Positions 23,081-60,846 of a DNA stretch of 64,000 nucleotides are shown in pieces. A program made the position numbers and the translations under genes. The DNA lies in the NCBI GenBank assembly GCA_947568835.1, contig OX387611.1, positions 7,692,001 to 7,756,000 on the forward strand. The letters are read 5' to 3'. Position 1 is the stretch's first letter. Every line of letters begins with the position of its first letter. This DNA comes from Protonemura montana. Taxonomy: Eukaryota; Arthropoda; Insecta; Plecoptera; Nemouridae. Under the pieces are notes generated by a model. It saw only the letters and a program-made list of their open reading frames with translations, was not told the DNA's origin and searched no databases.

Positions 23081-23815
23081 TAAAATTAGCAAAATTAGTG
23101 TAAAATTGCGTAAATGTCCTGCCTTGCTGGTAATTCTTCCTAACGTTTTTTTTTTTATAATAAAAGCTGCCTGCCCTGAAGGACTTGGAGCTAGAAAAAA
23201 AAACATCTTGGGGCATCTATTGTAATCAGTACCTACATGTAGGTATGTAATTTTAGCAATTAGCTAAAAGATACAAGTGCGTATGATAGTTGCATCAGTA
23301 AATAATGAAATCCATTCCAAGGAACGGTAGATATTCGCCGATTTCTGTGCAAATTAAATCTAGGTGGGGAGAAGGGGGAACTTTTCAAGACAGGGTGCTT
23401 GTTTCGCTCCACGCAAAGAAACGGACACTTGCCATCGCCTCTGTGATGGACATTCCGTAACAGGGTGCTTGTTTCGCTCCACGCAAATAAACGGACACTT
23501 GCCATCGCCTCTGTGATGGACATTCCGTGACAGGGGGCTTGTTTCGCTCCACGCAAAGGAGCGGACACTCGCCGTCGCCTCTGTGCTGGACATTCCGTGA
23601 CAGAGTGCTTGTTTCGTTCCACGCAAAGGAGCGAACACTCAACGTCGCCTCTGTGCTGGACATTCCGTGACAGAGTGCTTGTTTCGTTCCACGCAAAGGA
23701 GCGAACACTCAACGTCGCCTCTGTGCTGGACATTCTGTGACAGTAAGCTAGTTTTGCTTTCCACAAAAGAGAAGACTCGCCATCGTAACTGTGATAAAGT
23801 TATTGCTTCTTAGTT
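23080..23815 (-). repeat. Composite repeat with 70-bp minisatellite (5 units), copy 1
   Basis: CAGGGTGCTTGTTTCGCTCC-type units start at 23391, 23461, 23531, 23601 and 23671, period exactly 70 bp. The units are flanked on the left by about 300 bp also present at 27335-27625, and on the right by CAGTAAGCTAGTTTTGCTTT. It runs directly into a fragment of 5S SINE core. Long open frames across the array are artefacts of the repeat. Confidence 0.85.
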
Positions 23816-27334: not shown

Positions 27335-27842
27335 TCCGAAATTTTTGTAAAGTTGCGTAAATGACCCGCCTTGCTGGTAATTATTCCTATCGTTTTTTGT
27401 TATAATAAAAGCTGCCTGCCCTGAAAAACTCAGAGATAGACAGAAAAAACACCTTGGGACATCTATTTTAATCAGTAATCGTATGTAATTACAGCAATTA
27501 GCTAAAAGATACAAGTTTATAAGTTAGCTGCAAAGGTAAAAAATGAATTTCAATCCAAGAAACGGTAGATATTCGCCGATTTCTGTACAAATTAAATCTA
27601 GGTGGGGAGAAGAGGGAACTTTCCAAGGCAGGTTGTTTGTTTCGCTCCACGGAAAGGAGTGGACACTCGCCGTCGCCTCTGTGATGGACATTCCGTGACT
27701 GACTGTTTATTTCGCTCCACGCAAAGAAACGAACACTCGCCGTCGCCTCCGTGCTGGAAATTCCGTGACAGTAAGCTAGTTTTGCTTTTCACAATAGAAA
27801 AGACTCTCGCCATCGTTACTGTGATACAGTTATTGTTTCTTA
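27335..27842 (-). repeat. Composite repeat with 70-bp minisatellite, copy 2 (about 2 units)
   Basis: Shares left flank, 70-bp units and right flank (CAGTAAGCTAGTTTTGCTTT) with 23080-23815 but holds only about two units. It also runs straight into SINE core at the same point. Confidence 0.85.
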
Positions 27843-28921: not shown

Positions 28922-31900
28922 ATGACAGTCCTAGCAGAAGTTCCTATCGACATGGCTGCCCCTGCAATTGCCACAGACGGCTCGTTAGTGCGAAAATTCT
29001 ACGCAGGCGCTAGCGTTCTAGTAACAGGTGGCACTGGCTTCCTGGGCAAAGTGCTGATCGAAAAGCTGTTGTGGGCGTGTCCTGATGTCAGCACCATCTA
29101 TGTTCTGGCTCGCGAGAAAAAGGGTCAAACAGCAGAGGAGCGAATATGCACTCTTCTGAGCTCGCAGGTTTGTAGGTCAATGTCAATATACTGTTCATTA
29201 ACCATGACTGATTCGAAGATAGAGATGGGTAAGGTGAATCAAGTTTGAATCAGTATTTGGGGTAATTGATTAATAAGTGGTGTTTTACGACGCAAAGTAT
29301 TTGACAACGGGCAAATGGCGTAGGCGAATAAGTGAATTATGATGTAAATGATGCTAAACTTAACCTAGATTTACTAAAGGGTGGCCTTTTATTAATAAAG
29401 AGTTGGTCTACAAAGCTCTTGAATGATTTTGTCCAGTGCTTCGATCGTCTCCGGCAGTCGCGTGGTCCCGGGTTCGGCTCCAAGTTGATCGCAGTCCAAG
29501 GAGACATTTCTAAAGAGTGTCTTGGTCTCAATGACCTAGATCGCACCCTGCTGGCCACCCACGTGTCCGTAGTGTTTCATGTTGCCGCCTCGATACGGTT
29601 TGACGAACCGTTCCACGTGGCTGTGACGCAGAACGTGCGGGGAACGAAGGAACTGGTGCTACTGTGCAGAACAATTACAAAACTAAAGGTATCAAAGAAA
29701 ATCAAGGTGACTTGTTGATGCAATAACAGCAAACTGGTTTTCAAATAGTGTAATTTTTTAATTTTTTAATTTAAAATTTATTAACTTTTGACACGATTAA
29801 TTTTTCGTCTAAATTTATCGATCGACTTAAACCAGCCGTAAACACTAAAGAAGAAATTTGGTTATTTCACTTTTTTTTTGACAATTAAGTTCCGATAAAA
29901 TTTACAAAGAAAAACATTGCATACTTTTTGTAACACATCCAACGATTTTTGTAAGTTTCCTTCTTTTATCGAAGGCGCTGGTTCACGTCTCTACAGCCTA
30001 CGCCCACTGCCCACACCCGAAGATAGAGGAGCGATTCTACGATCCTCCAATGGACTGTGACCTTGCTCTCAAAATGGCGGCCGCGGGCGAGATCACGCCG
30101 GCCATGACAGAAAAGTGAGACTCGAAAAGTATAGCGAAAGTTTTTCGGTTCCAGTGCGCTTTTTACTATGGGGCACCATGTTGTCAGTACTCGTACCATG
30201 TAGTCAGTACAGGGGTACCTTTTGACAAATGGCTCTTACTGCAAGCCTTTGAATTTCCAATCGAGCCACTTGCACAAAATTGACCAGAGCAGCACTTACG
30301 ACAAGTTTATTTAAAGGTTCGAGTGCCCGTTTGAACAAACATTTTTGAGAAGTTGTTAGTGTTCCTAATAATAATACATTCTTTGCGCATTGCAAGAGTT
30401 TGCAATTTAAATAAGCTTTCAAAGAATGATAAATATTTCTGAACTCAATAATAATGCCAATGATACCTCTTTTAATTTAAGACCACATGTTCCTATCTTG
30501 ACATTGTTTAACCCCTTCCAGCCGACGATTCGGATGCACGGATAAAAGAACGATCAAAAAATCTACTTCGTTAATCAAAACCATGATTTTTTCACACAGG
30601 CTGCTGGGTGGGTGGCCGAACACGTACACGTTTACGAAGGCTTTGGCGGAAGAAATCGTTCGGAGGTACGGGTCAGGACTTCCGGTGTGTATCTTCCGCC
30701 CAGCGATTGTCATATCGTCCCTGAGCGAGCCGATCGAAGGGTGAGATACCTGATCCTGAGATACTTGCCGACCCCGGATCTACCACTAGGGATTTGTACA
30801 AAAGCTTAATACGTCACCGAAGTTAAGGAACACTGCGCTGAGTCAGGTATTGGATGGGTGGCCATCATACACATGACCAGTTCTGTTCGGGAGAGAGGTT
30901 GGAGGGATGAAAGTTAAGCAACACTGCGCTGAGTCAGGTATTGGATGGGTGACCATCATACACACGACCAGTTCTGCTTCGGAGAGAGGTTGGAAGGAAG
31001 ATAATTAATAAAGCAACTTCATTCGCCTTGCTTATCAACATCTCGACAGCATGAATTTGTAGAGAAATCCTGCTGTTAGTTTAGTACCGTCATTTGGAAG
31101 GGACGTTAAGCCCGTGGTCCCCTTGGTGCTCTTCGACAGGAGTAGGCTACGTGCCGGCACCGGGTTTCCCCTCCTACCCTCTAGACTAAGTTAGGTTCAT
31201 CATTCTCATAATCATCTACTCATTCACCGACGACATTAGACCAGTGCCGCATGGCCAGATGTCAAAACATTCCATCGTTAAACCCCAATAATCAATCAAT
31301 CATTAGTAAATAATATATTGTAAGTCTAGAACTGTACAAATATCGAATCAAATAAAGAAAAAAAATGCATAGATTCTTCCCATCAGCGGGAATTATAATT
31401 CTGTGAACACAGATAGAATTTTTTCAAGTAAACTTAACCTGACGAAACTTCAAATCTTTCAAACATTATTTTTGCAATAATAAAACTGTCGACAATTTTG
31501 CACCAGATGGGTGGACAACTTCGCGGGCCCGGGAGTCGCTTTGGCTGGAATTTTGACTGGGTATCTCCGGGTAATGCCAGCCGATCGCCGGTTGGATGCT
31601 GCTTTGGTACCGTGTGACATGGTGGTTGACGGAATTATGGTGGCCGCTTGGGACTGTTCCCGGAATACGTGAGTTATTTTATATCTGAATTAAACATTCG
31701 CTTTCTACCAACTAAAAGAAGAACTAGTTTTGGGGAGAATTATTATTATGTGTATTTTTTTTATCGAAACTTATGTCGTATTAACTGGCTGCCCCGGTGC
31801 GCTCAAGGAGTACACTTGGAGCGATTTTTTTTTGACTGGGCATGTAAATCTGCCCCAGTGCAACTTTCACGTGTTCGACTGGGCATATGACTCTGCCCCA

Positions 31901-34900
31901 GTGCAACTTTCACGTGTTCGACTGGGCATGTGACTCTGTCCCAGTGCAACTTTCACGTGTTCGACTGGGCATATGACTCTGGCCCAGTGCAAATTTCACG
32001 TGTTCGACTGGGCATGTGACTCTGTCCCAGTGCAACTTTCACGTGTTCGACTGGGCATGTGACTCTGCCCCAGTGCAACTTTCACGTGTTCGACTGGGCA
32101 TGTGACTCAGCCCCAGTGCAACTTTCACTTGATCAACTGGCAGAGTTGCTCGCTTTTGGGTCACTCCTGGTGAAATTGTTTTGGAATTTGGAAGATTCTT
32201 ATGGAAAACAAATAAATCCACTGACAACTAGTGATCATGTGTTTGGGTGGGAGTACTCTCGCTCGGAGCTGGCGAAAATCCAGTGGAGAGCATGGCGGTT
32301 TAGAGCGATCTCAAATTAACCGTTATCTGCAACACACACATATTATAAAACAAATTACCATTTAATTGCAGAGACAACAGCGAGATCCCCATCTACAACT
32401 TCACCCCGTCACCAAGCAATCAGATTTCTTGGAAGAGGTTCTTCACCGAGTATGCTGACCTAGTCAAAGACATGCCTTCAAGCTACGCTATCTGGACTCC
32501 CGGCTGTCTTGATTTTACCAATCGTTCGGTCATCTTCCTGTGCCGTCTACTGACCCAAACACTTCCTGCGGGAATCACTGACATTGGGCTACTGCTGGCT
32601 GGAAGGAAACCTTTGTACGTATATAAGCTGTTAATGGGTTACTGTGGCTTCTTCCAACAACGAAAATTGTTTTGCAATTTTCGGCTATTTGCAGAAGTTT
32701 GCTTGAGCGAACTCAAAATTGGTATTTACTGTTCAAATAAAATCATCTCAGTTGGGTTTGTAGGTTGAGTCTCGAGTTACCAAATGGTATTGAGTGACCG
32801 TCTTTAAGAATAAGGAATTACATTTTTATAATATTTCTTCTCAACTCGAAATTTCAACTAATGCATATTATTTAAAAATAACTTTTAAGTCCAAAGTCTA
32901 ACTTTTCCAAAGATAATCTGGCCGAAAAGTTGGCGTTAGAATTATAATTTTTTAAATATTTTCTCTCCTTGCCAAAATAACACCTACAAATGTATCTTGA
33001 CCTAAGTTCAGGACAACGTATCTAAAAAATTAGTACACATGACCAGTTTTGTTCGGGAGAGAGGTTGGAGGGATGAAAGTTGGTACAGCAACTTCATTCG
33101 CCTTGCTTATCAATCTCTCGACAGCATCGATTTGTGGAGGAATACTGCTGTTCGCGTTGTACTGTCTTTCGGAAGGGAAATTCAACCGGTGGTCACCTTA
33201 ATGCTTACAGGAGAAGATTACATGCCGGCACCCGGTTTCCCCTCCTCCCTTCTAGGCTAAGTTAGGTTCATCATAATTATTATCATCATCCACTCCAATA
33301 GACCAGTGCCACATGGCCAGATGTCAAAACATTGCGTCTTTAAACACAATAATCAGTCAATCTCTGGAAATTTGAAGTGAGCACTTTTTTTACTCCTTTA
33401 CTATGATGTTGTGATTAAAATCTCCATGAGAAACTCAAATACCTTGATAGAGCATAGCATCCAGCCAGTTGGTAAAAATTGAAGTCAGGCAATCCATTGT
33501 TTTCTCAAAGTTAGAATCAAATTAACAAAAAAATATAAAACTGCGGAAAGCTTTCTACTAAAACCTTTTAACAACACACCCCAGCAGTAAAATATCCTTT
33601 TTAGCGATACTGCATACCTACATAACCAAATATTTTTCATTTTCCAGCGCCAGGCGTCTTTTTCAGAAGATCAACAATGGACTGGATATCTGTTCTTACT
33701 TCACCACACGAGAGTGGGGCTTCCAGGAGAAGAATGTGCCTGCCCTTTGGGATAAACTCTGTCATCAGGACCAGGCGATCTTCAACTTTGACATGAGATC
33801 CTTGGACTGGAAAATGTACGCGACGAAGACGAGTCCTGGCATCAGAAAGTTCATCCTCAAGGAAGATCCGGCGACCATACCGAAGGCAGTGGTTAGGTAT
33901 CAAAGGTAGGAAGTTGTTAAGCTAGGTTAAGTTGAGTCAGGCCTTATTGGGTGACCGAATTTCAAAACAAATCTATGGCCATTCTGGTTTTGAGTATTTC
34001 TTCACGGAACTAATCGCTTTTATTTTTAACAAGCCTTTCACAATAGAAAAAAAAAATACAATGCTTGTTTAAATGACTTTTTTTATTACATGAAAAATTA
34101 CTACCCTATCTAAAATGCATTCCAAAACGGGAACTCAAACCTCGAACTCCACCTATCGTGGGTGTTGCTCTAACTTGCTCTAATCTGAAGATCTAACTGA
34201 AAACATAATTTTTGAGGTTAATTTAGTGCATTTGATGAGAACGACGCATCTCCAAAGAGTTTTAGTGTTCCTAATAATAAAATTAATCGTGCATTGCAAG
34301 AGCTGGCCATTAAAATCAAATCGACAACCCAGATAAGGATTTTTTGTTTACTTTTGTAGATATAAACGTAAACATCTCCAGTCAAATTAAGTATTAAGTT
34401 ATATAAATTTTAATACGAAACGGATTGGCGGTTGGTAATACCGGTTTTGCGTGACATAACCGAAATTAAGCAACACTGCGTTAGGTTAGGTATTTGATGG
34501 GTCACCATTATACACATGACTAGTGAACCAGAAACCAAAATCTAGTTTGTGTAAAACCAATGGAATTTGTTTTTAATTAATATGTGTTGTGTGGATAAAA
34601 AGAAATCTTCTTCAAAGTCAATAAGCGATCATTGGGAAAAAAAACATGATATTGTTATTGTTACGAACACTAAACCGTCTAAAAATTGATGGCCAAACGG
34701 GGACACAGCAACACCCGCGATAGGTGGAGATCGGGGTTCGAGTCCTCGTTTGGGATCAATTTTTGCGACGGTTGCAGTGTTCATAATAATAAAATACCCC
34801 GCGCATTGCAAGCGTTTGCAATTTAAATGAGATTTCATCTAATCTTTATGTTTTTCATCGCTAAATCTAAAATTCTGTTTTCAATCCGCGCAAATGTTTA

Positions 34901-37390: not shown

Positions 37391-37832
37391 TAGACCGAAT
37401 GGTTTGACATGTTGGAAAGACCGGTTCTCGTTAGATCACCGAAGTTGAGCAACACTGCGCTGGGTCAGGTATTTGATGGGTGACCAACATACACATGACC
37501 AGTTCAGTTCGGGAGAGAGGTTGGAGGGATGAAATTTAGTACAGCAACTTCATTCGCCTTGCTTATCAACCTCTCGACAGCATGGATTTGTGGAGGAATC
37601 CTGTTGTTCGAGTTGTACCGTCCTTCGGAAGGGACTTTAAGCCGGTGGTCTCTTGGTGCTCTTTGACAGGAGTAGGCTACGTGCCGGCACCGGGTTTAAC
37701 CTCCTACCTTCTAGGCTAGGTTAGGTTCATCGTCATCCTCATCATCATCCACTCATTCACCGACGCCATTAGACCAGTGCTGCATGCCCAGATGTCAAAA
37801 CAGTGCGTCGTTAAACACCACGAATAATAAAA
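37391..37832 (+). mobile_element. 5S SINE, full-length copy
   Basis: Complete head (GGTTCTCGTTAGATCACCGA), core and tail (CAGTGCGTCGTTAAACACCA). One of the best-preserved copies. Confidence 0.92.
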
Positions 37833-38396: not shown

Positions 38397-41300
38397 ATGA
38401 CAGCTTTATGCGAGCGATTCGTTTGTGTTTTCGTGCTTTCGCTGTGTTTTCGAACAGGTACGTTGGATTTTCATTGCAATAATATTTAAATCATGTCACA
38501 GACATGCTTTGCTTGGGAGTAGTACCGAACAGTTTGACGTGTTAGAATCACCGGTTCTCGTGTGATCACCGAGGTTAAGCAACACTGCGCTGGGTCTTGC
38601 ATTGGATGGGTGACCGTCATCCATATGACCAGTTCTGTTTGGGAAAGAGGTTGGAGGGATGAATGGTAGTACAGCAGCTTCATTTGCCTTGCTTATCAAC
38701 TAACCGACAGCATGGCTGTCGGAGAATCTTGCGAACAAACACGTCGTAATTGATTGGAGAAGAGGACTGCACCAGTGCACTTTTTTGGTACATTTTCCTG
38801 AACTGAGAATGTTAACGGGTTAAACGGTAAACGGTTTGCTATTTAGGTGTTCGTAACATTACTAGCAAGACGAAATTTGTAGGAGTAGAAAATAAAGAAA
38901 ATGATTATGTGATTTAAATGTCGAATTACGAAATTACATGTGAATGATCGTACTAGAATGTTTACTGATATCTGTCTGTGTGGATTTCTTGTTGCAGTGG
39001 CCGCTTTAACTAATCAAGAAGTCTTGAACGTCGCCGGAGTGTTGCTTTTTGTACTTGGGATCGTTTTGCTCATCGTCTTTCTCAGTTTCCTGGCCAAGGA
39101 GTGTGTCAGAAAAATGAACCTCTTCAAAAGTGAGTATAGCTAAACTTTGCACTTGGAAGAAAGTTTCTGTAATTCGGGATATTTTGTTCGAAATCTTTTA
39201 AATCAACTATAGGTTTTTTTAAGATGGGTATTTACGAAAAGATCTCACTTAATACGATAAAACTTTTGGGTAAAAAGTTCATATTTTTTTATAACTCTTG
39301 ACAAAAGTATCGCAATTAAATTTTTGCGTTGCGCTTCATGGGTCTTCCCCATGGGGTCTCCCCACTCAGCTGTTAGGAGGATCTACTGACAGCGCGTCTG
39401 AGCGACTTGCCCGGACTCGCTGTCGGTAGCTACTGGACGTAATTTGGCGCCGCGCGCCGACTTACTCGGACTTCTGTTTCATTGATACTATTTGTCTGAT
39501 CGAGTTTAGACTAAAATTTTTGAAATCTTCATGCTTTACGCAATATGTTAGCAATTTATCGCAACCAAAATTGTATGGTGTGGTTTTGGCGTTGAAACAC
39601 TGTGGATTTTTTTACTCATTTTAATACCAATAAAAACAATAATTTAATTGAGAATGAGATAAGTACGATGTCTGAAAACTTGTCATTCTCTCAAGATAAG
39701 TATTTTAGATGTAAGAAAAAATTACGAATCACTCAACTCTATTACTTAATTCCCGGAAAACCAAAGGCGACAGCAAAAAGTTTGTTTTTCCGGTTTTCTC
39801 ACAAATTTCTCGCAGAATAATTTTTTGAGTACCTATCTTATTAGTGAAAGCCATGCAAAAAGATTTGCTCTTATGTCAATTTTTACATTCCGTAAGAATT
39901 CCCTTTAGAATTGTTGTTACAATAAAGCTTGCTGAGAGTTTGTTTCACTTGCACTACTGTCACAGTTTGGTTATACCAATTAAATACTTCCTGAAGCTCA
40001 CTTTGTCTAAGAAACCCATTGTCTAAGCCAAGCTAATTAATCAACTAAACAATTTCGCAGGCAGAAGCGACGAGTCCAAACCATATCCGGACTACGACGA
40101 GGTAGACGAAGGTGAGAGAATTTAGAACCTTTGTGACTTTCATGTGACCACTCTGTGGAGATTTAACCTAACACTTTTTTATTTATTTATTTTATAATAA
40201 AAGTATTATTACAAGTTGATTTAAAAATGCATGTTTCCATTTAGAATTTGACTGCCGTTCTGTTGTTGGCACATTTGTCCATATATGTATCAATTGTTAA
40301 AAAAAACCAAGCACATTTTCAATGCTTACCTTCAAATTTACAAGCAGTATACGGTAAAATACTATACTGCAGAGTCTTATTTTTGTATCTATTTTTGAAT
40401 TAATTTTGTATTATGTAAGTCATAAAAATTCCGATTTGGTGTGGAACAGTGAAATGTACAGACTGTTAAAACTAATTTAAAAAATAATGCTGTAGTTAAT
40501 AATTTATAGTGGTAATCTATAGTTAATGTAAATAAAACCAAACTAATTTGCAATGCTTACCGTTAAATTTACAGAACAGTAGGTACCTATAATTTGAAAT
40601 ACTATACCTTAGAATCTTACCTGATGGCGTTGCACCTAAAAGCGGTGTTTTTGCTCTAAAGAATTTATGAAACTAATTTTATTAGACCTTGTCTATGAAA
40701 AATAATTTTGTTCCGAAATTTATAGCAAAATAAATGTACTTTAAACCAAGCAAAATCTACGCAATCCAAGATTTTGTAACCTCACCCGTTCACAACACAA
40801 TTATTAAACATACAAAAAATTGGCTCGAGGTTCGTTGGGCAAGCCAGTTTTGTTCTAAAAATATAGTTTTGTCAAATAATTTTTTGAATACCCATATTTT
40901 TTTTTATTTTATTTTTTTTTTATGCGTGTGTTTTTTTTTATCAGCACTGAGACAAAGAACATTGCCACCGCCTTCTCTGCCCAAACGCCCTGCTGCAAAT
41001 AACGTGAAACAGCTGAATGCGCCAGCAGAGTACGCTCCTCCGCGACCAGAGGAACCGGAATACATAATTCCAGAAGCTTCTTCAGGTGAATAGCAAATGG
41101 CACATCCAACTGGCTGCCTCGGTGTAGGGGCTTTTCACATGCTCGACTGGGCATGTGAATTTGTTCCAGTACAAATTTCAGTTGTTCGAATGAGCATGTG
41201 AATCTGCTCCAGTGCAACTCCACTCCAGTCCAAAATGTACACTGGGGCAGAGTCGCATGCCCAGTCAAACACGTGAAAGTTGAACTGGGACAGAGTCACA

Positions 41301-42046
41301 TGCCCAGTCGAACACGTGTAAGTTGCACTGGGACAGAGTCACATGCCCAGTCGAACACGTGAAAGTTGCACTGGGACAGAGTCACATGCCCACTCAAACA
41401 CGTGTAAGTTGCAGTGGGGCAGAGTCACATGCCCAGTCGAACATGCAGATCGCCCCCAGTGCATACTCGGGGCAGCCAATCAAATACTTTTTAAGTCGAT
41501 GATTTCAGAAGCTAGAAGCTTCTAGAGAGACACTTGATCAAGCGAACTGCCTTGTTATAGATTTGCATTGAATTAAAAGATCATTTTTTTATTACTAGAA
41601 CTGGCGTTGGAACCGTTGAAGTCATCTTGTCCACCGAAAGAAAAGGATGTGAAAATGTCGACTACTTTACCAGAAGAACCGGAGTACATATATCCTGAGG
41701 AACCTGATAGTAAGTGGGTAGCTGGAGTTTAGTCACTCTATCACTCCGGCTCTAGTCACTCACTGAACTTTGCAGTCCTCTTAAAAGTGTGTCCAAGAGT
41801 TGCACACACTTGCACACACGAGTTGGACACAAGATTTGCACAAGAAGCAAGAGTTGTGGAAAAAGGACTTGACCAGTGCAGTTGCATTAGCTGTGAGAAA
41901 TTAATTTTCTTTGGGTTGCCTATCTGATTTCCGCTGTGTTATTCTTTGATTGTAGATTTTCTTCTTCGTTCCATTCGTGATACTATTTTTGTTTGTGCTT
42001 TTCAGATTCGCTTAATCCCGATGGCTACTTAAGACCTATAATGTGA
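38397..42046 (+). CDS. Small single-pass membrane protein with repeated YxxP motifs, 178 aa
   Basis: Not recognised. Exons 38397-38457, 38998-39129, 40061-40111, 40945-41085, 41599-41709, 42006-42046 total 179 codons with stop, and every intron is phase 1. Residues 1-20 look like a signal peptide (VCVFVLSLCF). A short outside segment (AALTNQEVLNVAG) is followed by a membrane helix of about 24 residues (VLLFVLGIVLLIVFLSFLA). A basic stop (KECVRKMNLFK) precedes an acidic, proline-rich tail. The tail holds YPDYDEVDE, EYAPPRPEEPEYIIPE, EEPEYIYPEEPD and GYLRP, so YxxP tetrads occur three or four times. YxxP is the known binding consensus of Crk-type SH2 domains when phosphorylated; a phosphotyrosine docking role is my inference. 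Exons 4 and 5 end in near-identical EEPEYI.PE motifs, suggesting exon duplication. Splice sites are all canonical; no EST support can be seen. Confidence 0.76.
38524..38745 (+). mobile_element. 5S SINE head and partial core
   Basis: Head (CCGGTTCTCGTGTGATCACC) and first part of the core, lost after CTGTCGGAGAATCTTGC. Lies in intron 1 of the YxxP protein gene. Confidence 0.85.
39335..39830 (+). repeat. Dispersed repeat, copy 1 (inverted relative at 62.85-63.31 kb)
   Basis: A G+C-rich block (GTCGGTAGCTACTGGACGTA, GGCGCCGCGCGCCGACTTA) and a downstream GGAAAACCAAAGGCGACAGC block both recur in inverted order at 62.85-63.31 kb. In intron 2 of the YxxP protein gene; open frames across it are not convincing. 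Confidence 0.65.
40308..40625 (+). repeat. Local duplication, period about 228 bp
   Basis: The blocks CAATGCTTACCTTCAAATTT (40320) and CAATGCTTACCGTTAAATTT (40550) with following sequence are two diverged copies, in intron 3 of the YxxP protein gene. Confidence 0.5.
41107..41487. mobile_element. 43-bp CACGTG minisatellite unit, locus C, inverted arrangement
   Basis: Both ends carry the same terminus in opposite orientation: GGCTGCCTCGGTG at the left, and the complement CGGGGCAGCC at the right. Degenerate repeats read plus up to about 41220; about five good repeats from 41245 read minus. The array therefore flips orientation inside one unit. In the intron between YxxP protein exons 4 and 5. 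Confidence 0.8.
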
Positions 42047-47851: not shown

Positions 47852-50800
47852 ATGTCTCTGCTCGCTACCGTCTTGTTGCTGGTGTCGGCAGGTGGAGCTT
47901 ATGCTGCCACCACAACTTACACGATAAGTGAGTGAACCACAAAGAAATTACTGGTTGTTCTTGAGTGGCGTTTGGAGAGCCAGTATCGAAATAGCTTTAA
48001 TGCTAAACTTTCTTCGAGAAACGTGGCCGCCAAGTTACTTATGAAGTGCCAAAAATTGAAGATGCCTCTAGGTGGAGTCACCGTCGTTTCTTGTGTTAAG
48101 AAATTTAGTCTAGTTATTTTTTGCAGATTAATCTTATTTGAGACTAGTAAATGCTCAGTTGATCTGGTACTTAAGCTGTTATTTCCTTTCACAGACTAGA
48201 TTGAAGGTTGATATTGTTAAGATAATCTTTTGGGAAGTAGGGCCCTGTGAAGCTTACGTCATTCCCTTAAATTAGTCTAAGATAATTCAGAACTCTTCCG
48301 ATAGGTGGCATTGTTTCCCATTTAGATAAGTTTTAAGTGCGCTGCTGAAAAATCAAACGTTTTCCCTCTTATGTTTCCCATAAAACTTGATTATACGAAA
48401 TATTTGTAAGCTTAGCTGCGACTTTTGCGTAGAACACATTTTAGTATGCGGGCTTTTTTCGACAAAAATAAAAAGTTGAGTGGAAAACACTTCTAGAAAA
48501 GATATATATGTCTATATATAGTTCCTCCCCAAATCACTTCAATCTTTGTCTCGCGTTTCACCTTTCCAGCGACCCCCTGGGTGGACTTCCGTGGCCATCT
48601 CGCGCCATCTCTTGGTGTCCTTGACACATACCAGTACACGCAGTTGCCGAAAACGGCTAACGATGCCACCGACAAAGGCTACGTCGCACCACCTGAAGAG
48701 AACAGTGATGCATGCGCGGATGCGGGCCATGCGCTAACTACTCTGTGCCCCACCGATGACCCGTCGCTGTGTCTGCTTTACGACGCCAATGGTAACATAG
48801 CCGGTATGGAGTGGGCGGTAAGTGTTACATGAGAAATCTTTTGAAGAGACAAGTTGCATTTTTGAAATGGCGGAGTGGTTCAGAGGCGCAGTCTCATATT
48901 TATGTAGTTGACGGGTTTGCTCTTTTTTTTTCTGGCTTTTGGTTCTAAAAAGGGCCTCATGGTCAACGTTTTGTCGGCGTCGACGCCGAAATCTTCAGGA
49001 CCATATCGGCCCTGAAGTCCTGAAAATGTTGGTGCCAACGCCAAAGAAACGTCGACTCACATAATTTTTAGGACCAAAAATCCATCATCAAAGAGCATAA
49101 CGCGAAAACTTTTCTACCATGAGATCTAAAGGAAATAAGTACCAGAATGGGAAAAAGGGAGTATCACTAGAATATAAATACATTTTGAAAGGACTACGTA
49201 TTGTCCGCTTAAAAACTGATTTTCACACACCGTATGTACTAAAAATAAAAAGAGTGCGCGTGTTTTTTTTGTAGGTTGTGAAATTCAACGCAGCAAGCGC
49301 CTATCCATTCGCTAAGAAGCCGTTCTTCGTCAGTAAGACCCGGTTTGGACTTGACTCGTGGGTGTTCACCGTCTACCTGGTCGAACAGAGTAAGCTCAAG
49401 GGAGATACGTTAAGCATTACAAGCGTATGCTTTAAGCTTAACAGTAAACGTAATACTTCTTTTATCACTCAGTGCATTGTCGCTCATATTGCATACCTGG
49501 AGAACGTGAACGTTAAGTTTGCAAACTACAAAATGTGCTGCTACGTTTTGGGTCAAACCTAAAGGTTCATCCATAACATACTAAGCAGCAACAGTAACGA
49601 ACGCTCAAATGCAAAATCAGATTTTTCACATGAAACTTAAGCAGTAAATCATTATCCAAATGAAATCATCGCCAGCGGCGCCAGTTGGTTGAAAGAATAG
49701 GACATTGCACTACAGCAGACGAAGTTTTCCTCTAAAATCCTTAACAACAGAATTTTTGGTTTCAAGAAAAGTTGAACGACCAGACTGACCCGAGAGCGAG
49801 CAACTCTGCCAGTCGAACACGTCAAAGTTGCACTGGGACAGAGTCACATGCCCAGTCGAACACGTGAAAGTTGCACTGGGACAGAGTCACATGCTCAGTC
49901 GAACACGGGAAAGTTGCACTGGGGCAGAGTCACAAGCCCAGTCGAACACGTGAAAGTTGCACTGGGACAGAGTCACATGCCCAGTCGAACACGTGAAAGT
50001 TGCACTGGGACAGACTCACATGCCCAGTCGAACACGTGAAAGTTGCACTGGGGCAGAGTCACATGCCCAGTCGAACACGTGAAAGTTGCACTGGGACAGA
50101 GTCACATGCCCAGTCGAACACGTCAAAGTTGCACTGGGACAGAGTCACATGCCCAGTCAAACACGTGAAAGTTGCACTGGGACACAGTCAAATGCCCAGT
50201 CGAACACGTCAAAGTTGCACTGGGACACAGTCAAATGCTCAGTCGAACACGGGAAAGTTGCACTGGGACACAGTCAAATGCTCAGTCGAACACGGGAAAG
50301 TTGCACTGGGGCAGAGTCAAATGCTCAGTCGAACACGTGAAAGTTGCACTGAAACAGAGTCACATGCCCAGTCGAACACCTCTCCCAGTGCGCACCCAGG
50401 GCGCACCGGGGCAGCCATTCGGCTACGTCATAAGGTTTCCACGTTATAGGTGTCATCAATGGCCGCGGCCGCAATACGACTACACCAACGGGTGACGGCG
50501 CCTGGGTTCAAAGTGGTTTCAACAACGTCATCACGATCCCTCGGTTCGAGGGTCAGATTTCCGGTACTCCATGGGTCAAACAGGCATGCTCTGCAGGAAC
50601 AGGTGAGAACAGTATTCGTGAAGTGCCCGCCTATTTATGTTCCACAGCTTTACATTTGGAAGTTTTTAAACCGTTCTTTGTCAGTACAGCCCAGATCCGG
50701 AATTAATAAGTGCCAGTTATACAATGTCCGTTTAAAAAGATAACTATCAGTGCTGAGGCTATCATACACTTCAAGACACCTGGGGTGCACCATGTTAACA

Positions 50801-51988: not shown

Positions 51989-52127
51989 TAGCGATCACGT
52001 TCAGTGTTGTACAAAGTCTTGCCACGACGATTCGCACAGTAACACATTTGATTCGGTTTACCATGAGTACATTTAGCGTTTGAAGCGTCTAAAAAGTGAT
52101 TTTTTCTTCTATTAAGCTTCTGTTGTT

Positions 52128-52830
52128 TTCGACCAGCCTGCACCAGGGCGGGATAGAACTTGCTTGACGACGTCATGCTCGTCGTCGGGTTTGCACAAGC
52201 TCAGAGCGAAAGCGTTCCCACTCGAACAAGTGCTCACTAGCTGTCAGAGCATCAATTTGTTTTCTTATTGCATTCTCGGAGCAAACCCAATAAACATGCC
52301 CAGTCGAACACGTGAAAGTTGCACTGAGGCTGAGTCACATGCCCAGTCGAACACGTGAAAGTTGCACTGGGGCAGAGTCACATGCCCAGTCGAACACGTG
52401 AAAGTTGCACTGGGGCAGAGTCACATCCCCAGTCGAACACGTGAAAGTTGCACTGGGGCAGAGTCACATGTCCAGTCGAACACGTGAAAGTTGCACTGGG
52501 GCAGAGTCACATGCCCAGTCGAACACGTGAAAGTTGCACTGAGGCTGAGTCACATGCCCAGTCGAACACGTGAAAGTTGCACTGGGGCAGAGTCACATGC
52601 CCAGTCGAACACGTGAAAGTTGCACTGGGGCAGAGTCACATGCCCAGTCGAACACGTGAAAGTTGCACTGGGGCAGAGTCACATGCCCAGTCGGACACGT
52701 GAAAGTTGCACTGGGGCAGAGTCACATGCCCAGTCGAACACGTGAAAGTTGCACTGAGGCAGAGTCACATGCCCAGTTTAACATGCAGATCCCTCCTAGT
52801 GCACACCCGCGGCGCACGGGGGCAGCTAGT
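52128..52830 (-). mobile_element. 43-bp CACGTG minisatellite unit, locus E (about 11 repeats), most complete
   Basis: Read on the minus strand: terminus near 52830 (GCTGCCCCCGTGCGCC), about 11 nearly identical repeats (52295-52780), then the long module down to 52128. That module includes GCTCCGAGAATGCAATAAG, GAGTGGGAACGCTTTCGC and CATGACGTCGTCAAGCAAG. It lies directly downstream of the plus-strand secreted-protein gene. Confidence 0.9.
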
Positions 52831-54125
52831 TATGAATACACATAGTAAGTGTACATCTGACTGTTTTATTTGGCCTCCATAATTTTAGTCTTTATTCAAA
52901 CAATTCTACAACTATACAATATTCTTCTTCTCTACAGCCATGTGTGGCTGGATCGTTTGCAGGCTTGGTAACGTGAATACAGAGCATATATAATAAGACA
53001 TGGATTATGTTTATAATAGCAATATAAAAAGTGTTTTGAAATTTGCTTTAATTTATTGAACTGCATTGATAGAATAAAGATTATTTAGAACACAAATTTA
53101 CTTGTAGCTTATGATTAGGAATATTTTAGTCACAATAAAATGGTTTGTAATGCAATATGGTGAATGTTGGAGAAGTTGAATGCTGTTTGCTATGATATCT
53201 AAAGTACCTACAGTAGAGTACCAGTTTCATTGAAATAGAATTACCAAGGTAGAAACGATTTTCATTATTTTCATTATTATTTTATTGTAATCAATTATTT
53301 TCTCTGGTGGTTTTTGGATAAGAACATAAATGCATTTTTTTTTTGTATTTTTACTGTCATTTTCCATTTTAACAAACAGGTAACGATTGAAACTTTTAGA
53401 CTGCCTTCAACATTATAACAATTTACCAGCACTGTTAATTTAATATATTTACTATAACTTTTCGCATCTTCTTTTAATACTTCTCAATCCATTCTCTGTT
53501 TGCAATTGATTTCCATATTTCTTCTAAGTTTATTTTCTCCTAGTTATCTCCTTTTTCTTTATATCTCTTCTCACATTTTGTATCCCTCTCTTCTGTAGTA
53601 TTTCTCCTTCCCTAATTTATTTAACTTGAACCATTTTCCTCAGTAATTTATCACCAAAGTTTTAATTACGTTTTTTATAATACAATAAACAAAAATAATT
53701 GTAGGAATTTATTTGAATTCTGGAAAATAGACGTGGCATGATGATGATAAAATTCTTTTATTTCCTTTTTTCGACATCAGTGGATTGAGATTGATAAACT
53801 ATATGTGGTGTAGAACTTATTTTTCTTTTGGAGATGGTTCACGTTAATAAATCAAACAAAAAACACTTTCAAAACGGTCGTATCCAATTAGCATTAAGCA
53901 TTGAAATGTGTTTAATATAGCTAAATCAAAGTAATCGGTCTCCCCCAATACCAGGTAGTTCAACGTTCGTTACTGGCGGAGGTAAAAATTCACATTTCTT
54001 GAGATGGTAGAAGCTTAGGTAGAAGTATTTATAATAATAAAATACTCTGCCAACAAAGAGCGTTCGAAGCTTGAACAAGAACGATCATACCAAAAAGCTA
54101 TTGCTGTTTATAATATTTGTGGTCT
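52831..54125. other. Region between convergent genes
   Basis: A+T-rich; it separates the secreted-protein gene (plus) from the odorant receptor (minus). Around 53460-53690 the minus strand has lysine-rich broken frames that could be old LINE sequence, too weak to call. Confidence 0.35.
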
Positions 54126-54130
54126 TGATA

Positions 54131-57100
54131 CTAGATCACATCGGGCATTGACAGATAAAGAAACTGTTCGGAGATGGCCGTTTTTTTGACAGTAGTCATT
54201 GCAGCCATGTAGTAAGAATACGTCAGCTTCATGACCTTGAAAAAGAAAGATATATTGGTTTTGCATGGTTTTATATTAGTTTTATGCTCATAATTGGTTT
54301 TATTCAAGATTTTCTACAAGCACTTTCATGTACACTACGTGACCAGGAACTTCAAGAGAGGAATAGCACAAATGCAAGCTGCAATATGTATATTCGGGTA
54401 GCTTAGTTGGTAGTGTCCAGCGACTGAGAAGGCCCGGGTTCGTATGCCGATTCAATAGCAATTTTTTCCAGTCTAGCTTCCTTTCCTGTGTTAATTATGT
54501 TATGTTTGTACATGAATCTGTCAGCGGATTTTTTTTAAGAAAATTAAGAACCGAGGGCCGTTATTGCTTTGCTTACTTTTTCTTGCTTTTGACTGTAAAT
54601 TCAATCAATTTAGGGTAAAACGGATAAAACAACTATTATCTTAGGTCCGATTCTACAATTTCCATCAAGTGTACACTGGAACTCAGAAAAATAAAAATAA
54701 AAAAATGACTTCAAATATTTTTTCGAGATCCCCCCAAAAGGCTTGTTGGGATAAGCAATTACTAAATCTTTGTTTTGTTTTGTTTTAAAGTTGTTCATTT
54801 AGCTTAAGAAAAAGCTATTTACAGAACATTATAACATTTTTGTAATTCTTAGCTTAAATTTTTACTTAAATACTAACATGTGGCTTTCTAATTTTCTACT
54901 TAACTTAACAAAGTCTTCCTCACCTTTAATATTTGCAGGAAGTGCATAGTATTTTCTTACTCCTCCATAAAATATACTTTTACTAGCCTTGCCTTCTACA
55001 CACGAATCTATTTCCGATCTAATTTTAAATTTGTGGTCTTTAAAATTAAGTTTTTTTTCTAAGTCCTACTTTAGCTTCTTGACAAAGTACTAAGTGCTAA
55101 AGTTTCTTGTATTTTTTTTTAATTTTTTTATTTTAGACTCTCAGGGGCAACTTTGAACGACAGATTTGAACTCACCGCCAAAAAAGTCTCCAATGACATA
55201 TTGAAATTCCCGGCCACTTTCATTACCAAAGGTTTGTTAGACATCAGGATCATCATACGCATGTTCCGTTTGAAACCATCCGATGCAGAGAGCCACTCGC
55301 AGCCAAACACGGCGTCCTTCACTAAAAGGCTCTGCGTACAGAAAACTCGTGTGGAAGTAAGAAGAGTTTTTGAGCGATTCGCATCCATCTTGTCGTATGG
55401 CAACATGTCAACCCGTCTCGACTTGAAGATCTAGGCTGTGTTACCAACTCACATAACGACCCTCGCCCCTGTCCACCAGTAAAACCAGTAATCTTTGAAA
55501 TAAACTTAAAAGCACTAGGGTTACCCTCGATAAGAGAAAAATTCGAAAAAGCAGCCCAATCAATCAATTGACCATGTTTTAGAGGTAAATCGTGGCATCT
55601 TCAAATGTGTGGAGGAAAATCCACGCACCTGCCCAATACTCTGTCTTACACAAAGTGCTAAACTAGGTTCAGAATGGGCATTTTAATGAGACATTGAATT
55701 ATGATGGTTTATAGACTCATGTCTATTTGTTTTAACAAAAACTATTTGAAATGGGTTTGAAATGGCTTCAACCCTTGAAGAAGTAACTAGTACCTACAAG
55801 CTAAGAAACGTCGGGAAATTTAGTTGTCCTTATCTTAGCATTCAAAACCAACTTCAAATAGTTTTTGTAAAGACATTGATTTATTCCGAAGTGGAAAAAA
55901 AACACAAAGGCTCTTTTCGGCGGAAATTTCATTATTTGTAAAAAAAGTTTCTGAAATAATGTTGCTTTTTTCCTAACCGTTTCTACTCGACAGTGGTATT
56001 TCTAAAATAAATCGTTTGTTTGTCACAATCACCAGGAAACTATCCTCCGTGCGTTTCAAAAATATCTTCCGCTAAAACTTAGCTCGTACCTGATTTGTTA
56101 ACTCGTTTGCCAAAAATGAGAAGGCGGCTAGAGACACGTTGCACAATATGATGAGCGCTATGAAAAATAAGATGAGCATGTCCAGTTTTGACTACAAAAA
56201 AAAAAGAAGCAAAGATTAATATTTTGAATTGGTAGCGTTTTAGAAGTTGTGTTGTAAATAGGCTTTTCTTTTTCCTTTTTTTATATTTTCCGATTTTTTT
56301 GTGGCTGCGCTTACACACCTTTTCGACAATCGTTAAGTATTTTGGTTCAACAAATATGTTTCCAATTTGGTGCTGTCATAAAAAATCTGTCAAAATATAT
56401 TTCTCATTAAATAATTACTGTGAATTTGAGCCCAAAAATTTGTCTGAATTTGCATCCTCGACCAGAGAGTAAAATTTTGCAATTTTGCAATTTATTGCAC
56501 ATGTGTTTTTCTGTTTTTAAACTTTGATTGCACATCTTAACGCATCTTTTATGTAACAGTATTAACTAAAACGGACAAATGTGCTTAAAACTTCATCATT
56601 AAGAAATATTCCCAGCCAAATTTTTTAAAAATAAAAGCAGGGGGTAGAAAAAGTATCGTGTAAATAAAATCTGAATTTTGACAGCCGTTTGAAGAAAACA
56701 AATAACATATCAAAAAAGAACACTATAGACAAGTGCTTTTGTAGCTCTGTTATTTCAGTTTGATTTCGAAACCTGGAATTCTTCAGCGCACTTCTTTTGC
56801 ATAGCCGTTACCAAGATTCAAAATATATCCTATTAATGTCTTTTTGGTTGTGCAAATTGATCTTGTGCCTCACGTGGATGACGAGTACGATCGCGATGAA
56901 GGTTGGTACCACCGAACAGACGTACTGGATGACGATAATTGGCCAGTATACGCGATTCACTGTTTCCACAAAACTGTAAAAGAAAAAGTATTAAAAAAAT
57001 GTTCTGTGTAAACGTGAAAATTTCTGTACAATTACTTCTGGCGTTTTCGACTGGCCAACACAAGAATGGGTTTGAAACTTGCTCGACGACGTCATGCTCA

Positions 57101-60100
57101 CCAAGGGGCTTGCACCAGCCGGTTAGCCAGCCGAATACGTCAAAAGAGAAAAAAGCGCACTTATTAATTCCTTTCTCTTTACTATTGTACATTTTTTAAA
57201 GAAGAGTGTACCTGACTATGGCCTGATGGTGCTTTGCACAATTTCTGAATGCCAGTTCCATTTCAAAGTGTCCGTCACATTTTTTTCTGTCGACCACAAA
57301 ATGTGAGGTTACGAAGTGATGAGGACGCTGCTGGTGCCTAAAAAAACATTCTTGAATTGCCTGTTTCAACTCATCAATTTGGGTCTTGTGGTTCATCGGT
57401 TAATGCTCATATACCAACGGTTCTCAAAAACTCAAAGAAAACATCTAATATTGCAGCTAATATGGATATTTGTACATGCCGTTTTAGTTACAGTGTCTAG
57501 CTTTAAGATTTACCCACAACTGACATCGGACGAAGCACAAGCTTCGGCGCACAAGAATTTTAAAATTAAAAAAGCATACATAACTATCATAAACCCCTTT
57601 AAGTATTCATGATTTCAATTCGTCATAACGTTTCTTTGAAAGACCTTTTTAGCAAGTTGTGTTATTGTAATTCGACCTTTTCTTACTTGTTTCTACGGCA
57701 ACGAAACGTTGGTCGCATCTGCAGTAAGTTGTATTTGAGTATTTCTAGCTGTCTGATAGCCTGTACCATCAACGCCATGAAGAAAGAGTTGACAAGACCG
57801 ATTACAAAGCCACCTGTAAAAATTAGGCATGCCCAGCCTAGCAGGGTGATCTCGAAGTAGGGTGTGGCAAAACCATCGTAAGGATACCACAACCTAGAAC
57901 GATAATTAACATTTAAAATATTAAAGAAACATTTAGCAATCCTAATTTGTGCGTTACTTTGTAAGTTCAACAAATTGTGATACATATTGAAATATATCTG
58001 AACTTTAAAAACACAGCAGTGTTTTCTGTATTTTTCATTTTGAGAACATTTTTAATATATATTTTCTTTGTTTTCAACCATTTTATCCAACCAATTGCCA
58101 AAAGACTTGTTGAAAATACGGAAAGTATACAAAAAAATCCGTCTACCTATATACAGCCCAGCCCGCGAGGTAAGACCAGCACAAGGTCTGTTCCTAAGCA
58201 CTGCTTCCAGCACAACAACGCAATTTCATTAATGATTATTTATTAGCAAAATTTCAAAGTGCTTATTATATTTGCAAAAAAAAAGGCTTTAGGTTGTTGT
58301 TATTAATATAAAAAATATTTTAAACGCTAGAAAAACAAAACATCTTGGCGCGACAAGAGCTTTGGAGAGAAAAAAATTGCGGACATCGGCGGAGATGATT
58401 TGTTGTGTCTTTAAAAATGACAGTCGGCCCACATGTCATCCCAAAACGACTGGTGGCGCCTGTGACGGAAAAGTATGTGCTCTCGCTGAACGGAGTATAA
58501 TTTTATTAAAAATGTTATAAACCATTCAAACAAATTAGAATGTATGAACGTGCAGTAAGCGGCAGGAAACTGAGTGAATCGTAACTTTCACATACTTTGT
58601 AAAATGTCTTCTAATCGTATACAGGAATACTGCCAGCCCAAAGCCAAAGAGCGCCGCACAAAACATGCAGCCTCCCGAGTAGAAAAGCACCAACATCGAC
58701 AGGTTTCTGCTTCGCCTTGTGATGGCCCTGGGGGGCTGTGGTGAGACTGCACCGTAGTCTCTTGCCGTTTGAAGCGATAGCAGCGTCCTTCTGAAGTCGG
58801 CACTGTTTTTCGTGAAGCAGAACAGCTGCACGCAGAGCATTACGTTCAGAAACCTGAAAAAATGCTTCGGTAGTCAACCGTACTTGAGTCGACTTTTGGC
58901 AGTAAATTTGACACTTGAGTAAAAGTAGCCTGTTCAAGACCTTTTGCCGGTATGAGATCTAAGTTGGCGTTGCAGCTGTGGATACCAAATTTTGTCAATC
59001 CATTGACACTACCGAACTGTACATAATAAAAGAGACATGAGCGAACAGTTAAGAAAAGTCTCCCTTTTGAGTTTTATCATGTGCTAGAAAATGTTTAAAC
59101 ATTTTCCGAAAAAAACCACTAAAATACTGTTTTTAGGTTGATTAATCAGTTCATACCAACTTCAAATAAAGAATAAAAAATATAATTTCCTTGCCTCGAT
59201 CCCTCAAAGGAAAAAATGAAGCCACTTCAACCCAATGCTGGTAGAGCTAAATTGAAATTGCAACATTAAATAATAAAGTATCTTACGAGAAGGCGATGGG
59301 TTCAAGGAAGGCGATGAGCTCGTCGTTGCGTGCTTCATACGTGGTGATTGGCATGGACACGACTAGCAGGAAAGAAGATGTGGTGAAAGCCAGTCGTGGG
59401 TTGCAATAGCGGAACCAGTAGCCTCGACGGGTAGGGTGGTCGTCAACTGGCCACAGGCCTGAGGGTAGGAAGAAGTTAATTAAAATGTTCTATTTTTCCT
59501 CGAATTTGAGCAACATTTATCTTATGAAGTAATTGACTGGCTACCCCGCTGTGCGCAAGAGAAGCAATTTGCGTTTTCGACTGGGCATGTGACTCTGCCC
59601 CAGTGCAACTTTCACGTGTTCAACTGGGCACGTGACTCTGTCCCAGTGCAACTTTCACGTGTTCGACTGGGCTTGTGACTCTGTCCCAGTGCAACTTTCA
59701 CGTGTTCGACTGGGCATATGACTCTGCCCCAGTGCAACTTTCACGTGTTCGACTGGGCATGTGACTCTGCCCCAGTGCAACTTTCACGTGTTCGACTGGG
59801 CATGTGACTCTGTCCCAGTGCAACTTTCACGTGTTCGACTGGGCATATGACTCTGCCCCAGTGCAACTTTCACGTGTTCGACTGGGCATGTGACTCTACC
59901 CCAGTGCAACTTTCAAGTGTTCGACTGGGCATGTGACTCTGCCCCAGTGCAACTTTCACGTGTTCGACTGGGCATGTGACTCTGTCCCAGTGCAACTTTC
60001 ACGTGTTCGACTGGCAGAGTTACTCGCTCCCAGTGCACTTTTTTGCACCGAAAATTTCGACGGTGCAATAAGAAAACAAATAATTACACTGACAACAAGT

Positions 60101-60846
60101 GATCACGTGTTTGGGTGGGAGAGATCTCGCTCGGAGCTGGTGTAAGCTCGGTAGAGGGCAAGCAAGTTTGAAACCCCTTTCTAGTGCTGAGCAATCGAAA
60201 AAGGCCAATAGATGACGTTTCTTGGCTCATGGGTGCTTAGAAAAAAGAATAACTCTGAAAAGCGCTATGGCTGTGAACGACTTGAAAAAAAATATATATA
60301 TATTTTTAGTATGAAATTTGCGTTCGAAATATACACCAGAGTTTTTATTCAGAAACCACAGCTCACTAACCATAGCGATGCGTTTGGTTTTGCAGTTATT
60401 CCAGTGCCTTTGGGTGTACCTTTGGATCGATGGAGATGTCTTCCAGCACATTATCATCGGATCGATGAAGGTGAAACTGATTTTTTTTAATACATTTTTT
60501 ACAAATTGCAATGGAGGCACTTTTTTGAATGCAAATTAATAAGTAAAACCCCTTCTAAAATGTGTCAATACATTACAGTTCACTTAATTATATTCTAGAT
60601 CCCCACCTCGAAAAGAACGTCTACTAAAAAATATCCAAAATACCTTTGTAGATGAAATACTATGAAAAAAGAATAAATCAGTTGCAAGATACCTTTATAG
60701 AAGAACAGCGACTTGAAGAAGGTTATGCAGAACATGTCGTCCCTCCATATTCTGACCAAAAGCGCCGAGATGATTTTTTTCACCGTTTTTACAGCAGACC
60801 TTTTTGGTTGCGCTCGATTATTATGACCATAATACGGCCTTGCCAT
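54131..60846 (-). CDS. Odorant receptor (7tm_6 family), 459 aa
   Basis: Ligand-gated cation-channel subunit of insect olfactory neurons, normally paired with Orco; this is a tuning receptor, not Orco itself. Exons on the minus strand: 60846-60693, 59458-59287, 58853-58596, 57893-57687, 57337-57212, 56973-56874, 56191-56090, 55331-55176, 54235-54131; phases agree and total 460 codons with stop. Family landmarks in order: FFKSLFFYKG/LWPVDD near the N-terminus, LWYPYD before helix 4, FRNCAKHHQAIVR, the FLANELTNQ segment, SLLVKDAVFGCEW, NKPLVMKVAGNFNMSLETFL, and the terminal VMKLTYSYY. Seven hydrophobic segments can be traced. The first Met used gives a 36-residue extension; an alternative start is DDM at residue 37. 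Intron 1 contains a 10-unit 43-bp minisatellite. Another receptor's last exon lies 2.5 kb upstream in the same orientation. Confidence 0.89.
54395..54500 (+). repeat. tRNA-derived SINE fragment
   Basis: GTAGCTTAGTTGGTAGTGTC (A-box-like) and CCCGGGTTCGTATGCCG (B-box-like), followed by TCCAGTCTAGCTTCCTTTCC, the same tail as the fold-back element at 10.2-10.4 kb. Confidence 0.7.
54840..55085 (-). pseudogene. LINE 3'-end coding fragment
   Basis: The minus strand encodes FYGGVRKYYALPANIKGEED and FVKLSRKLESHMLVFK followed by a stop, the usual C-terminal pattern of non-LTR elements. It lies in the last intron of the odorant receptor. Confidence 0.65.
55410..55890 (+). repeat. Dispersed repeat related to 4.9 and 13.3 kb
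   Basis: The left part (GTGTTACCAACTC to AAAAAGCAGCCCAATCAATC) matches sequences flanking the MITE at 4964-5643. The right part (GAAGAAGTAACTAGTACC to GAAACGTCGGGAAATTTAG) matches 13360-13410. In an odorant receptor intron. Confidence 0.6.
57040..57125 (-). mobile_element. Solo end module of the 43-bp minisatellite unit
   Basis: Contains GCGTTTTCGACTGGCC, TGGGTTTGAAACTTGCTCG and CGACGTCATGCTC, the outermost part of the right module seen at loci E and F, with no 43-bp repeats attached. Confidence 0.65.
58330..58495 (+). repeat. Dispersed repeat, copy 2 (relative at 51.47 kb)
   Basis: Shares CCCAAAACGACTGGTGGCGC and TGTGCTCTCGCTGAACGG with the copy at 51465. In an intron of the odorant receptor. 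Confidence 0.65.
59531..60195 (+). mobile_element. 43-bp CACGTG minisatellite unit, locus F (about 10 repeats)
   Basis: Left end GGCTACCCCGCTGTGCGC, about 10 repeats of 43 bp (59592-60012), then the right module CTGGCAGAGTTACTCGCTC, GTGATCACGTGTTTGGGTGG and CTCGCTCGGAGCTGG, ending around GCAAGCAAGTTTGAAACCCC. In intron 1 of the odorant receptor. Confidence 0.92.
60394..60470 (+). other. Splice-bounded hydrophobic segment, possible orphan exon
   Basis: Between TTTTGCAG and ATGAAG|GTGAAA the plus strand encodes LFQCLWVYLWIDGDVFQHII. It reads opposite to the receptor gene whose first intron contains it. The minus strand across it is also open and splice-bounded, so coding strand and reality are uncertain. 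Confidence 0.25.

Follow-up and report, generated by a model that had tools for sequence, protein, structure and literature searches.

We describe here a transposable element built around a tandem array of 43-bp units, several copies of which lie in a 64-kb stretch of the genome of the plecopteran Protonemura montana (NCBI GenBank assembly GCA_947568835.1, contig OX387611.1, numbered C14 here, positions 7692001-7756000; hereafter the window), and further copies of which are dispersed through the assembly of 258.5 Mb in 34 contigs. We consider it probable that this is a non-autonomous DNA transposon family of the miniature inverted-repeat transposable element (MITE) type, belonging to the PHIS elements, whose minisatellite derives from the element's own tip and whose arrays exchange sequence with one another. 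An earlier sequence-only reading of the window had proposed a mobile unit with constant ends carrying its own satellite, and this proposal is supported by the 70 exact tips found genome-wide and the 26 unique complete copies recovered; the ends proved constant, and the copies are not confined to segmental duplications, despite one pair with a duplicated look.

In the complete copies, 17-bp terminal inverted repeats (TIRs; TGGCGTWTTCGACTGGC) stand at the very ends. The conserved sequence extends outward on both sides, past the ends first recognised, as far as TGGCGT, and the two ends are inverted repeats of each other (TGGCGTATTCGACTGGC on the left and TGGCGTTTTCGACTGGC read inward from the right). 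The reversed control of the exact tip had no match, and the same was true of the backward controls of the junction CTGGCAGAGTTGCTCGC and the left-end word GGCTGCCCCGGTGCGC, which occur exactly 174 and 30 times. The 28-base core of the unit, CACGTGTTCGACTGGGCATGTGACTCTG, has 4,275 exact matches in the genome and none when read backwards, thus the repeat is not a product of chance. Pairing of both tips by BLAST, covering 88 loci and the window, gave the 26 complete copies (295-1474 bp), and 19 more were added by hand for the analysis of flanks (n=45). The layout is a left module of about 58 bp, the 43-bp units and a right module of about 218 bp (from CTGGCAG to the tip), the last having been put at about 170 bp in the sequence-only reading. 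Complete copies read left module, array, right module, and not as the long inverted repeats of tandem units of a foldback element. Short TIRs were found at both ends of many dispersed copies, and the flanks of complete copies, compared by eye and in the flank table, are unlike right up to the tips, so that constant ends are set in unlike surroundings.

When one mismatch in the tip was allowed, the 100 listed of 162 left-type and the 100 listed of 193 right-type places contained 18 facing pairs within 15 kb; 17 of these span 116-1,291 bp, and the remaining one, 10.9 kb long on C12, consists of outer tips that enclose a 1,002-bp copy together with another tip. Inverted-pair labels fell on 28 of the 93 left-end matches, with nine right-right pairs also listed, and most such pairs are taken as the effect of the shared 17-bp tip. 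Exact tips are unevenly spread over the contigs (chi-square p 7e-26), from 0.04-0.19 per Mb on C1-C5 (21-33 Mb) to 1.53 and 1.08 per Mb on C14 and C15, both of 13 Mb, while C16 and the other contigs have none. As to the unit itself, its exact core is absent from C1 and C3 (60 Mb) among the first 100 of the 4,275 places in contig order, and C4:1273302-1276726 looks like a single long array of about 80 units.

The origin of the unit is suggested by its likeness to the left tip. The two align with one 10-bp gap, CGTGTTCGACTGG-(GCATGTGACT)-CTGCCCCAGTGC against CGTATTCGACTGG-CTGCCCCGGTGC, and 23 of 25 bases are identical when the 10-bp insert is excluded; the alignment score of 26 was reached in none of 2000 dinucleotide shuffles. 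The right tip has just CGTNTTCGACTGG in common with the unit, and 25 of 2000 shuffles did equally well. This likeness makes it probable that the minisatellite was built up out of the left end of the element itself. The 26 complete copies carry 0, 1, 2 or 8 to 28 units (0-2 in 15 of them, 8-28 in 11), arrays elsewhere reach 35, and the loci and window together hold 820 units in 80 arrays. The apparent bimodality of array size was not retained, as it is weaker in the 80 arrays of 1-35 units. Unit number is scattered over a tree of the right modules of 46 copies (15 changes against a shuffled mean of 15.2, with 293 of 500 shuffles as low); the tree is star-like, with a median end branch of 0.12 and a shortest of 0.0043. 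Copies with long arrays tend to be slightly younger (median end branch 0.094 versus 0.13, p 0.04), a weak effect.

A sequence of events can be proposed on this basis. A transposase acting in trans, probably of PIF/Harbinger type (PHIS), would cut and paste the whole element into C-TNA-G sites. The unit would have begun as a copy of the left tip (CGTATTCGACTGG/CTGCCCCGGTGC) duplicated within the element, and would then have gained its 10-bp insert, giving a one-unit form flanked by the 13-bp direct repeat CGTGTTCGACTGG, between whose copies slippage or unequal exchange could add or remove units. Arrays at separate loci would then swap sequence through ectopic gene conversion or recombination.

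The last of these steps is suggested by the difference between the arrays and the modules which carry them. Averaged over 27 copies that carry five units or more, divergence from consensus is 4.2% in the units and 11.5% in the right module (3.5% and 10.3% when CpG sites are removed), and units are less diverged than their own right module in 26 of the 27 (Wilcoxon p 2e-7), about threefold on average; the exception, L088, has the least diverged module, and in L065 the two are nearly equal. The 17-bp junction by which many copies were found was excluded from the distance, and position 27, a C/T polymorphism (411 to 364), was excluded from unit divergence and from the comparison of consensus sequences. 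Across the same 27 copies unit divergence is independent of module divergence (rho 0.16, p 0.43). In 44 of the 48 arrays of six or more units the consensus agrees with the global consensus at each of the 42 sites scored, and identity within arrays (0.926) is close to that between arrays (0.919). Among variant cells within arrays, 707 recur in at least two units as against 431 confined to one, a pattern suggestive of local copying or common ancestry. Turnover in isolated arrays should fix array-specific changes whereas exchange would not; the near-uniform consensus thus suggests that dispersed arrays exchange sequence, and this is the explanation we prefer.

The main alternative to exchange is selection on the arrays, the low divergence then reflecting purifying selection on a functional unit, for example one bound by a factor. 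It would fit the mean non-CpG divergence of array units, which stays at 3.5% and does not follow that of the copy (rho 0.15, p 0.47), but lone units enjoy no such protection: 16 single units are 13.5% diverged, and in 18 copies with one or two units, taken with a looser filter, the unit is at 21.2% against 13.4% for the module and is the lower of the two in only 7. The CACGTG motif, which straddles the junction between units and in which the sequence-only reading had seen possible E-boxes, offers no help either, since its mean divergence is 0.039 against 0.048 elsewhere and its six-base window comes 25th when the 43 around the unit are ordered by conservation. Nothing marks CACGTG out as specially kept, a function as an E-box gains no support, and purifying selection on the unit appears improbable, though selection confined to arrays may still play a part. 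A hairpin noticed near the left end does fold, but it is not exceptional (z -1.42, 17 of 200 shuffles equally good), and the same holds for the unit (z -0.82) and the right end (z -0.45).

The assignment to a superfamily depends on the flanks. TNA adjoins the left tip in 26 and the right tip in 27 of the 45 copies, against a background rate of 0.100, with CTNA on the left in 14 and TNAG on the right in 15. This resembles the target preference C|TNA|G and overlaps TWA, as a preference of flanks only; PMC4482050 gives C|TNA|G for NuwaII and TWA for PIF/Harbinger, both of them PHIS groups. Together with the TIRs, the C-TNA and TNA-G flanks point to a non-autonomous DNA transposon most like the PIF/Harbinger type, and judged from these sequence features the PHIS assignment is probable. 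The genome has at least 154 matches to DDE_Tnp_4 (PF13359), so that transposase genes of the PHIS type are present.

However, this reading should be considered with caution as a number of results weigh against it. The 3-bp flanks are identical in 6 of the 26 complete copies (permutation mean 3.25, p 0.08) and in 8 of the 16 copies where TNA adjoins both tips (permutation mean 5.5, p 0.13); in a rougher list, whose 75 rows enter many copies in both orientations and so count them double, they are identical in 9 (p 0.35; p 0.02 for matched letters), and among its closest tips in 3 of 31 (p 0.61). Direct matching of the flanks of the 45 copies at lengths of 1 to 11 was best at 3 bp, which was not significant (z 1.89). 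A target duplication for each copy is thus weakly supported, and TNA could be part of the element instead, although in the many diverged copies mutation may obscure so short a signal. Searches of left and right flanks separately against the collected loci yielded no empty site, the first 80 matches listed corresponding to the same position in a different locus, to a different repeat, or to one flank inside another copy. As for an autonomous partner, the closest approach of 101 of the DDE_Tnp_4 matches to the 70 exact tips was 85,144 bases, and eight transposase loci, each of about 3.5 kb and so probably short of the ends, had no tip with fewer than four mismatches. The right-module tree is unsettled by bootstrap, with no inner branch starred, and exchange between arrays was not directly observed.

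In all, no autonomous element with the same tips was found among the exact tips, the facing pairs of the places listed or the eight transposase loci; the partner may be extinct, may have diverged in its tips, or may lie among the places beyond those listed. Further candidate signals were set aside. The tip-like matches at the transposase loci L089-L096 have four or more mismatches, and no TIR with a target-site duplication was found there. Putative autonomous ends TCGCGTTTTCGACTGGC on C5 and C11 turned out to be two near-identical copies of one long open frame with the tip match internal, a frame which, by eye and without a family search, reads like a retroelement polyprotein. Inverted (palindromic) flanks specific to single copies, suspected in a few, gave z of at most 1.72 at offsets of -4 to 4 in the 45 copies.

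The family could instead be a TIR element of another superfamily, or one of ISL2EU type with an AT duplication. AT is nearly constant beside the tips and an AT definition matches 13 of the 26 copies, though near-constant bases match trivially; the ISL2EU target is A|AT|T (PMC4482050), as against C-TNA and TNA-G here, and the flank matching favoured 3 bp (z 1.89). We regard this possibility as unlikely. A far poorer fit is the Helitron-like element favoured by the sequence-only reading, here taken as a non-autonomous Helitron or Helentron that holds a tandem array at its centre and multiplies by rolling-circle replication. Such elements often have arrays of satellite type set between their conserved ends (PMC12628747), and at least 150 Helitron_like_N matches were found in the genome, in open frames measuring 797 to 2061 aa. 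The 17-bp inverted repeats at the very ends and the TNA flanks nevertheless speak against it, and none of the 70 exact tips lies on C7, C8 or C33, where many of these matches cluster; a Helitron origin is therefore very improbable. Helitrons are not known to have terminal inverted repeats at their very ends or a target duplication. The Helitron_like_N matches are very similar to one another and often about 10-20 kb apart, occurring on C7, C8 and C33 and in clusters on C4, C11, C12 and C15, and Helitron copies may account for most of C7 and C8. That the arrays are an ordinary minisatellite dispersed by segmental duplication, with the flanks as passengers, is scarcely credible given constant ends in unlike flanks, even though one pair on C5 (13047483 and 13081356, 1291 and 1290 long) is identical in the six letters of flank at either end and has the look of a duplicated segment.

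As a probable PHIS-type MITE the family is filed as a further member of the known class of tandem-repeat-bearing MITEs; a literature search returned no description of it, which does not prove that none exists. By analogy, its closest relative in logic is Tetris, a foldback element of Drosophila virilis with TIR-derived tandem repeats (PMC4079207), which is likewise apparently non-autonomous and variable in unit number, and whose authors suggest that the repeats originated by duplication of part of its own TIR (37-bp, ~80% alike). In Tetris the repeats are about 220 bp and lie inside the TIRs, whereas here a single 43-bp array lies between short TIRs with different tips, and one inverted copy was recognised in the window. 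The Xenopus MITEs miDNA4 and Xstir (PMC12628747) also have an internal satellite unit in variable number; however, miDNA4 is of Tc1/mariner type and thought to have captured an existing repeat, and the Xstir repeats may stem from internal sequence, while the unit described here matches the tip. PIF/Harbinger and NuwaII elements (PMC4482050) share the short TIRs and the TWA or C|TNA|G preference, the present family differing in its large internal minisatellite, weak duplication support and lack of any autonomous same-tip element found. Helitrons and Helentrons with central arrays (PMC12628747) share the constant ends around a variable tandem array and differ in that the family here has terminal inverted repeats and TNA flanks.

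Within the window, all six of the arrays that had been named were located (2544-2855, 31834-32140, 41240-41443, 49809-50379, 52294-52777 and 59572-60041), with 55 units at up to 14 mismatches (26 on the + and 29 on the - strand), 17 exact 28-base cores and 56 occurrences of CACGTG. The shared flanks attributed to these arrays stand as regards constant ends, but not as exact words: GGCTGCCCCGGTGCGC is exact in only two copies (31787 and 50401, the latter on the - strand), with 2 mismatches at 52812 (- strand), 3 at 59539 and 4 at 41112, and the right junction CTGGCAGAGTTGCTCGC is exact at 2852, 32137 and 49796 (- strand) with one mismatch at 60011, the junction word CTGGCAGAGTTGC being missing from the copy at 52 kb.

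Seven copies, A to G, can be delimited. Copy A (2525..2909, + strand) is truncated at both ends, with a left remnant at 2525-2555 that has lost the GGCTGCCCCGGTGCGC end, an array of about 7 units (2544-2855) and the first 58 bp of the right module (2852-2909). Copy B (31774..32297, + strand) has its left tip TGTCGTATTAACTGGC from 31774, preceded by CTTA, then 7 units (31834-32140) and a right module (32137-32297) without its tip. Copy C (41098..41489) is inverted, of foldback type, its outer limit of 41489 placed by eye: a left tip at 41098, whose match (41098-41124) is weak (E 0.035), is followed by two degenerate + strand units at 41138 and 41181; then come five units on the - strand (41231-41445) and, at 41473-41433, a second left module whose outer tip is degenerate. 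Copy D (49763..50430, - strand) runs from its left tip at 50430 through 13 units (49809-50379) to the first 47 positions of the right module (49812-49763), the right tip being lost. Copy E (52121..52842, - strand) has a left tip near 52842, 11 units (52294-52777) and a right module reaching a tip near 52121, its outermost bases extrapolated from the alignment. Copy F (57039..57142, - strand) is what had been taken for a solo end module at 57.04 kb; at 104 bp it is an internally deleted copy that retains both tips but has no array. Copy G (59525..60206, + strand) has its left tip TGAAGTAATTGACTGGC from 59525, again preceded by CTTA, 10-11 units (59572-60041) and a right module that starts at 60011 and ends in a diverged tip at 60206.

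Copy B lies between exons of a fatty-acyl-CoA-reductase gene on the same strand (Pfam PF07993 at 30502-30744 and PF03015 at 33562-33909), and the frames at 31484-31672 and from ~32372 are probably parts of it too, with splice sites placed by eye. An intronic position is thus supported for this copy alone; that it applies to most is unproved, as the Pfam search gave no match fixing a host gene for the other window copies. A frame elsewhere in the window was judged by eye to be odorant-receptor-like, and Pfam gave no match for it. The reductase exons and this frame are in keeping with an insect genome.

Other repeats are also present in the window. Four matches to 5S rRNA (RF00001, 38-46 bits) lie at 642-746 (- strand), 6936-7056, 37394-37514 and 38524-38644, and tandem duplications of a 91-bp piece, 5S-like by eye, at 30820-30998 and 62323-62511; the 5S-like matches are perhaps 5S-derived short interspersed elements. 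A tRNA-like match at 10240-10312 (- strand; RF00005, 32.7 bits, the gathering score being 29) is possibly a tRNA-derived repeat. Further tandem arrays, at 984-1241, 23389-23743, 27634-27815 and 45138-45569, have units of 68-bp, 70-bp (at two places) and 114-bp.

Returning to the tip-derived minisatellite and its exchange between copies, a bolder and rather doubtful extension would be that the arrays are in effect rows of degenerate tips, and that the transposase or host repair proteins engage the unit motif and so drive exchange across hundreds of loci. If this were true, thousands of units would be held at one consensus while the elements that carry them decay, and the arrays would form a dispersed recombination hub. 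Because the ends decay whereas the arrays remain nearly uniform, the exchange of sequence among small, dispersed arrays becomes open to testing. Here a satellite has seemingly been born from a transposon's own tip, and the coexistence of copies with zero, one and many units lets the steps of that birth be compared.

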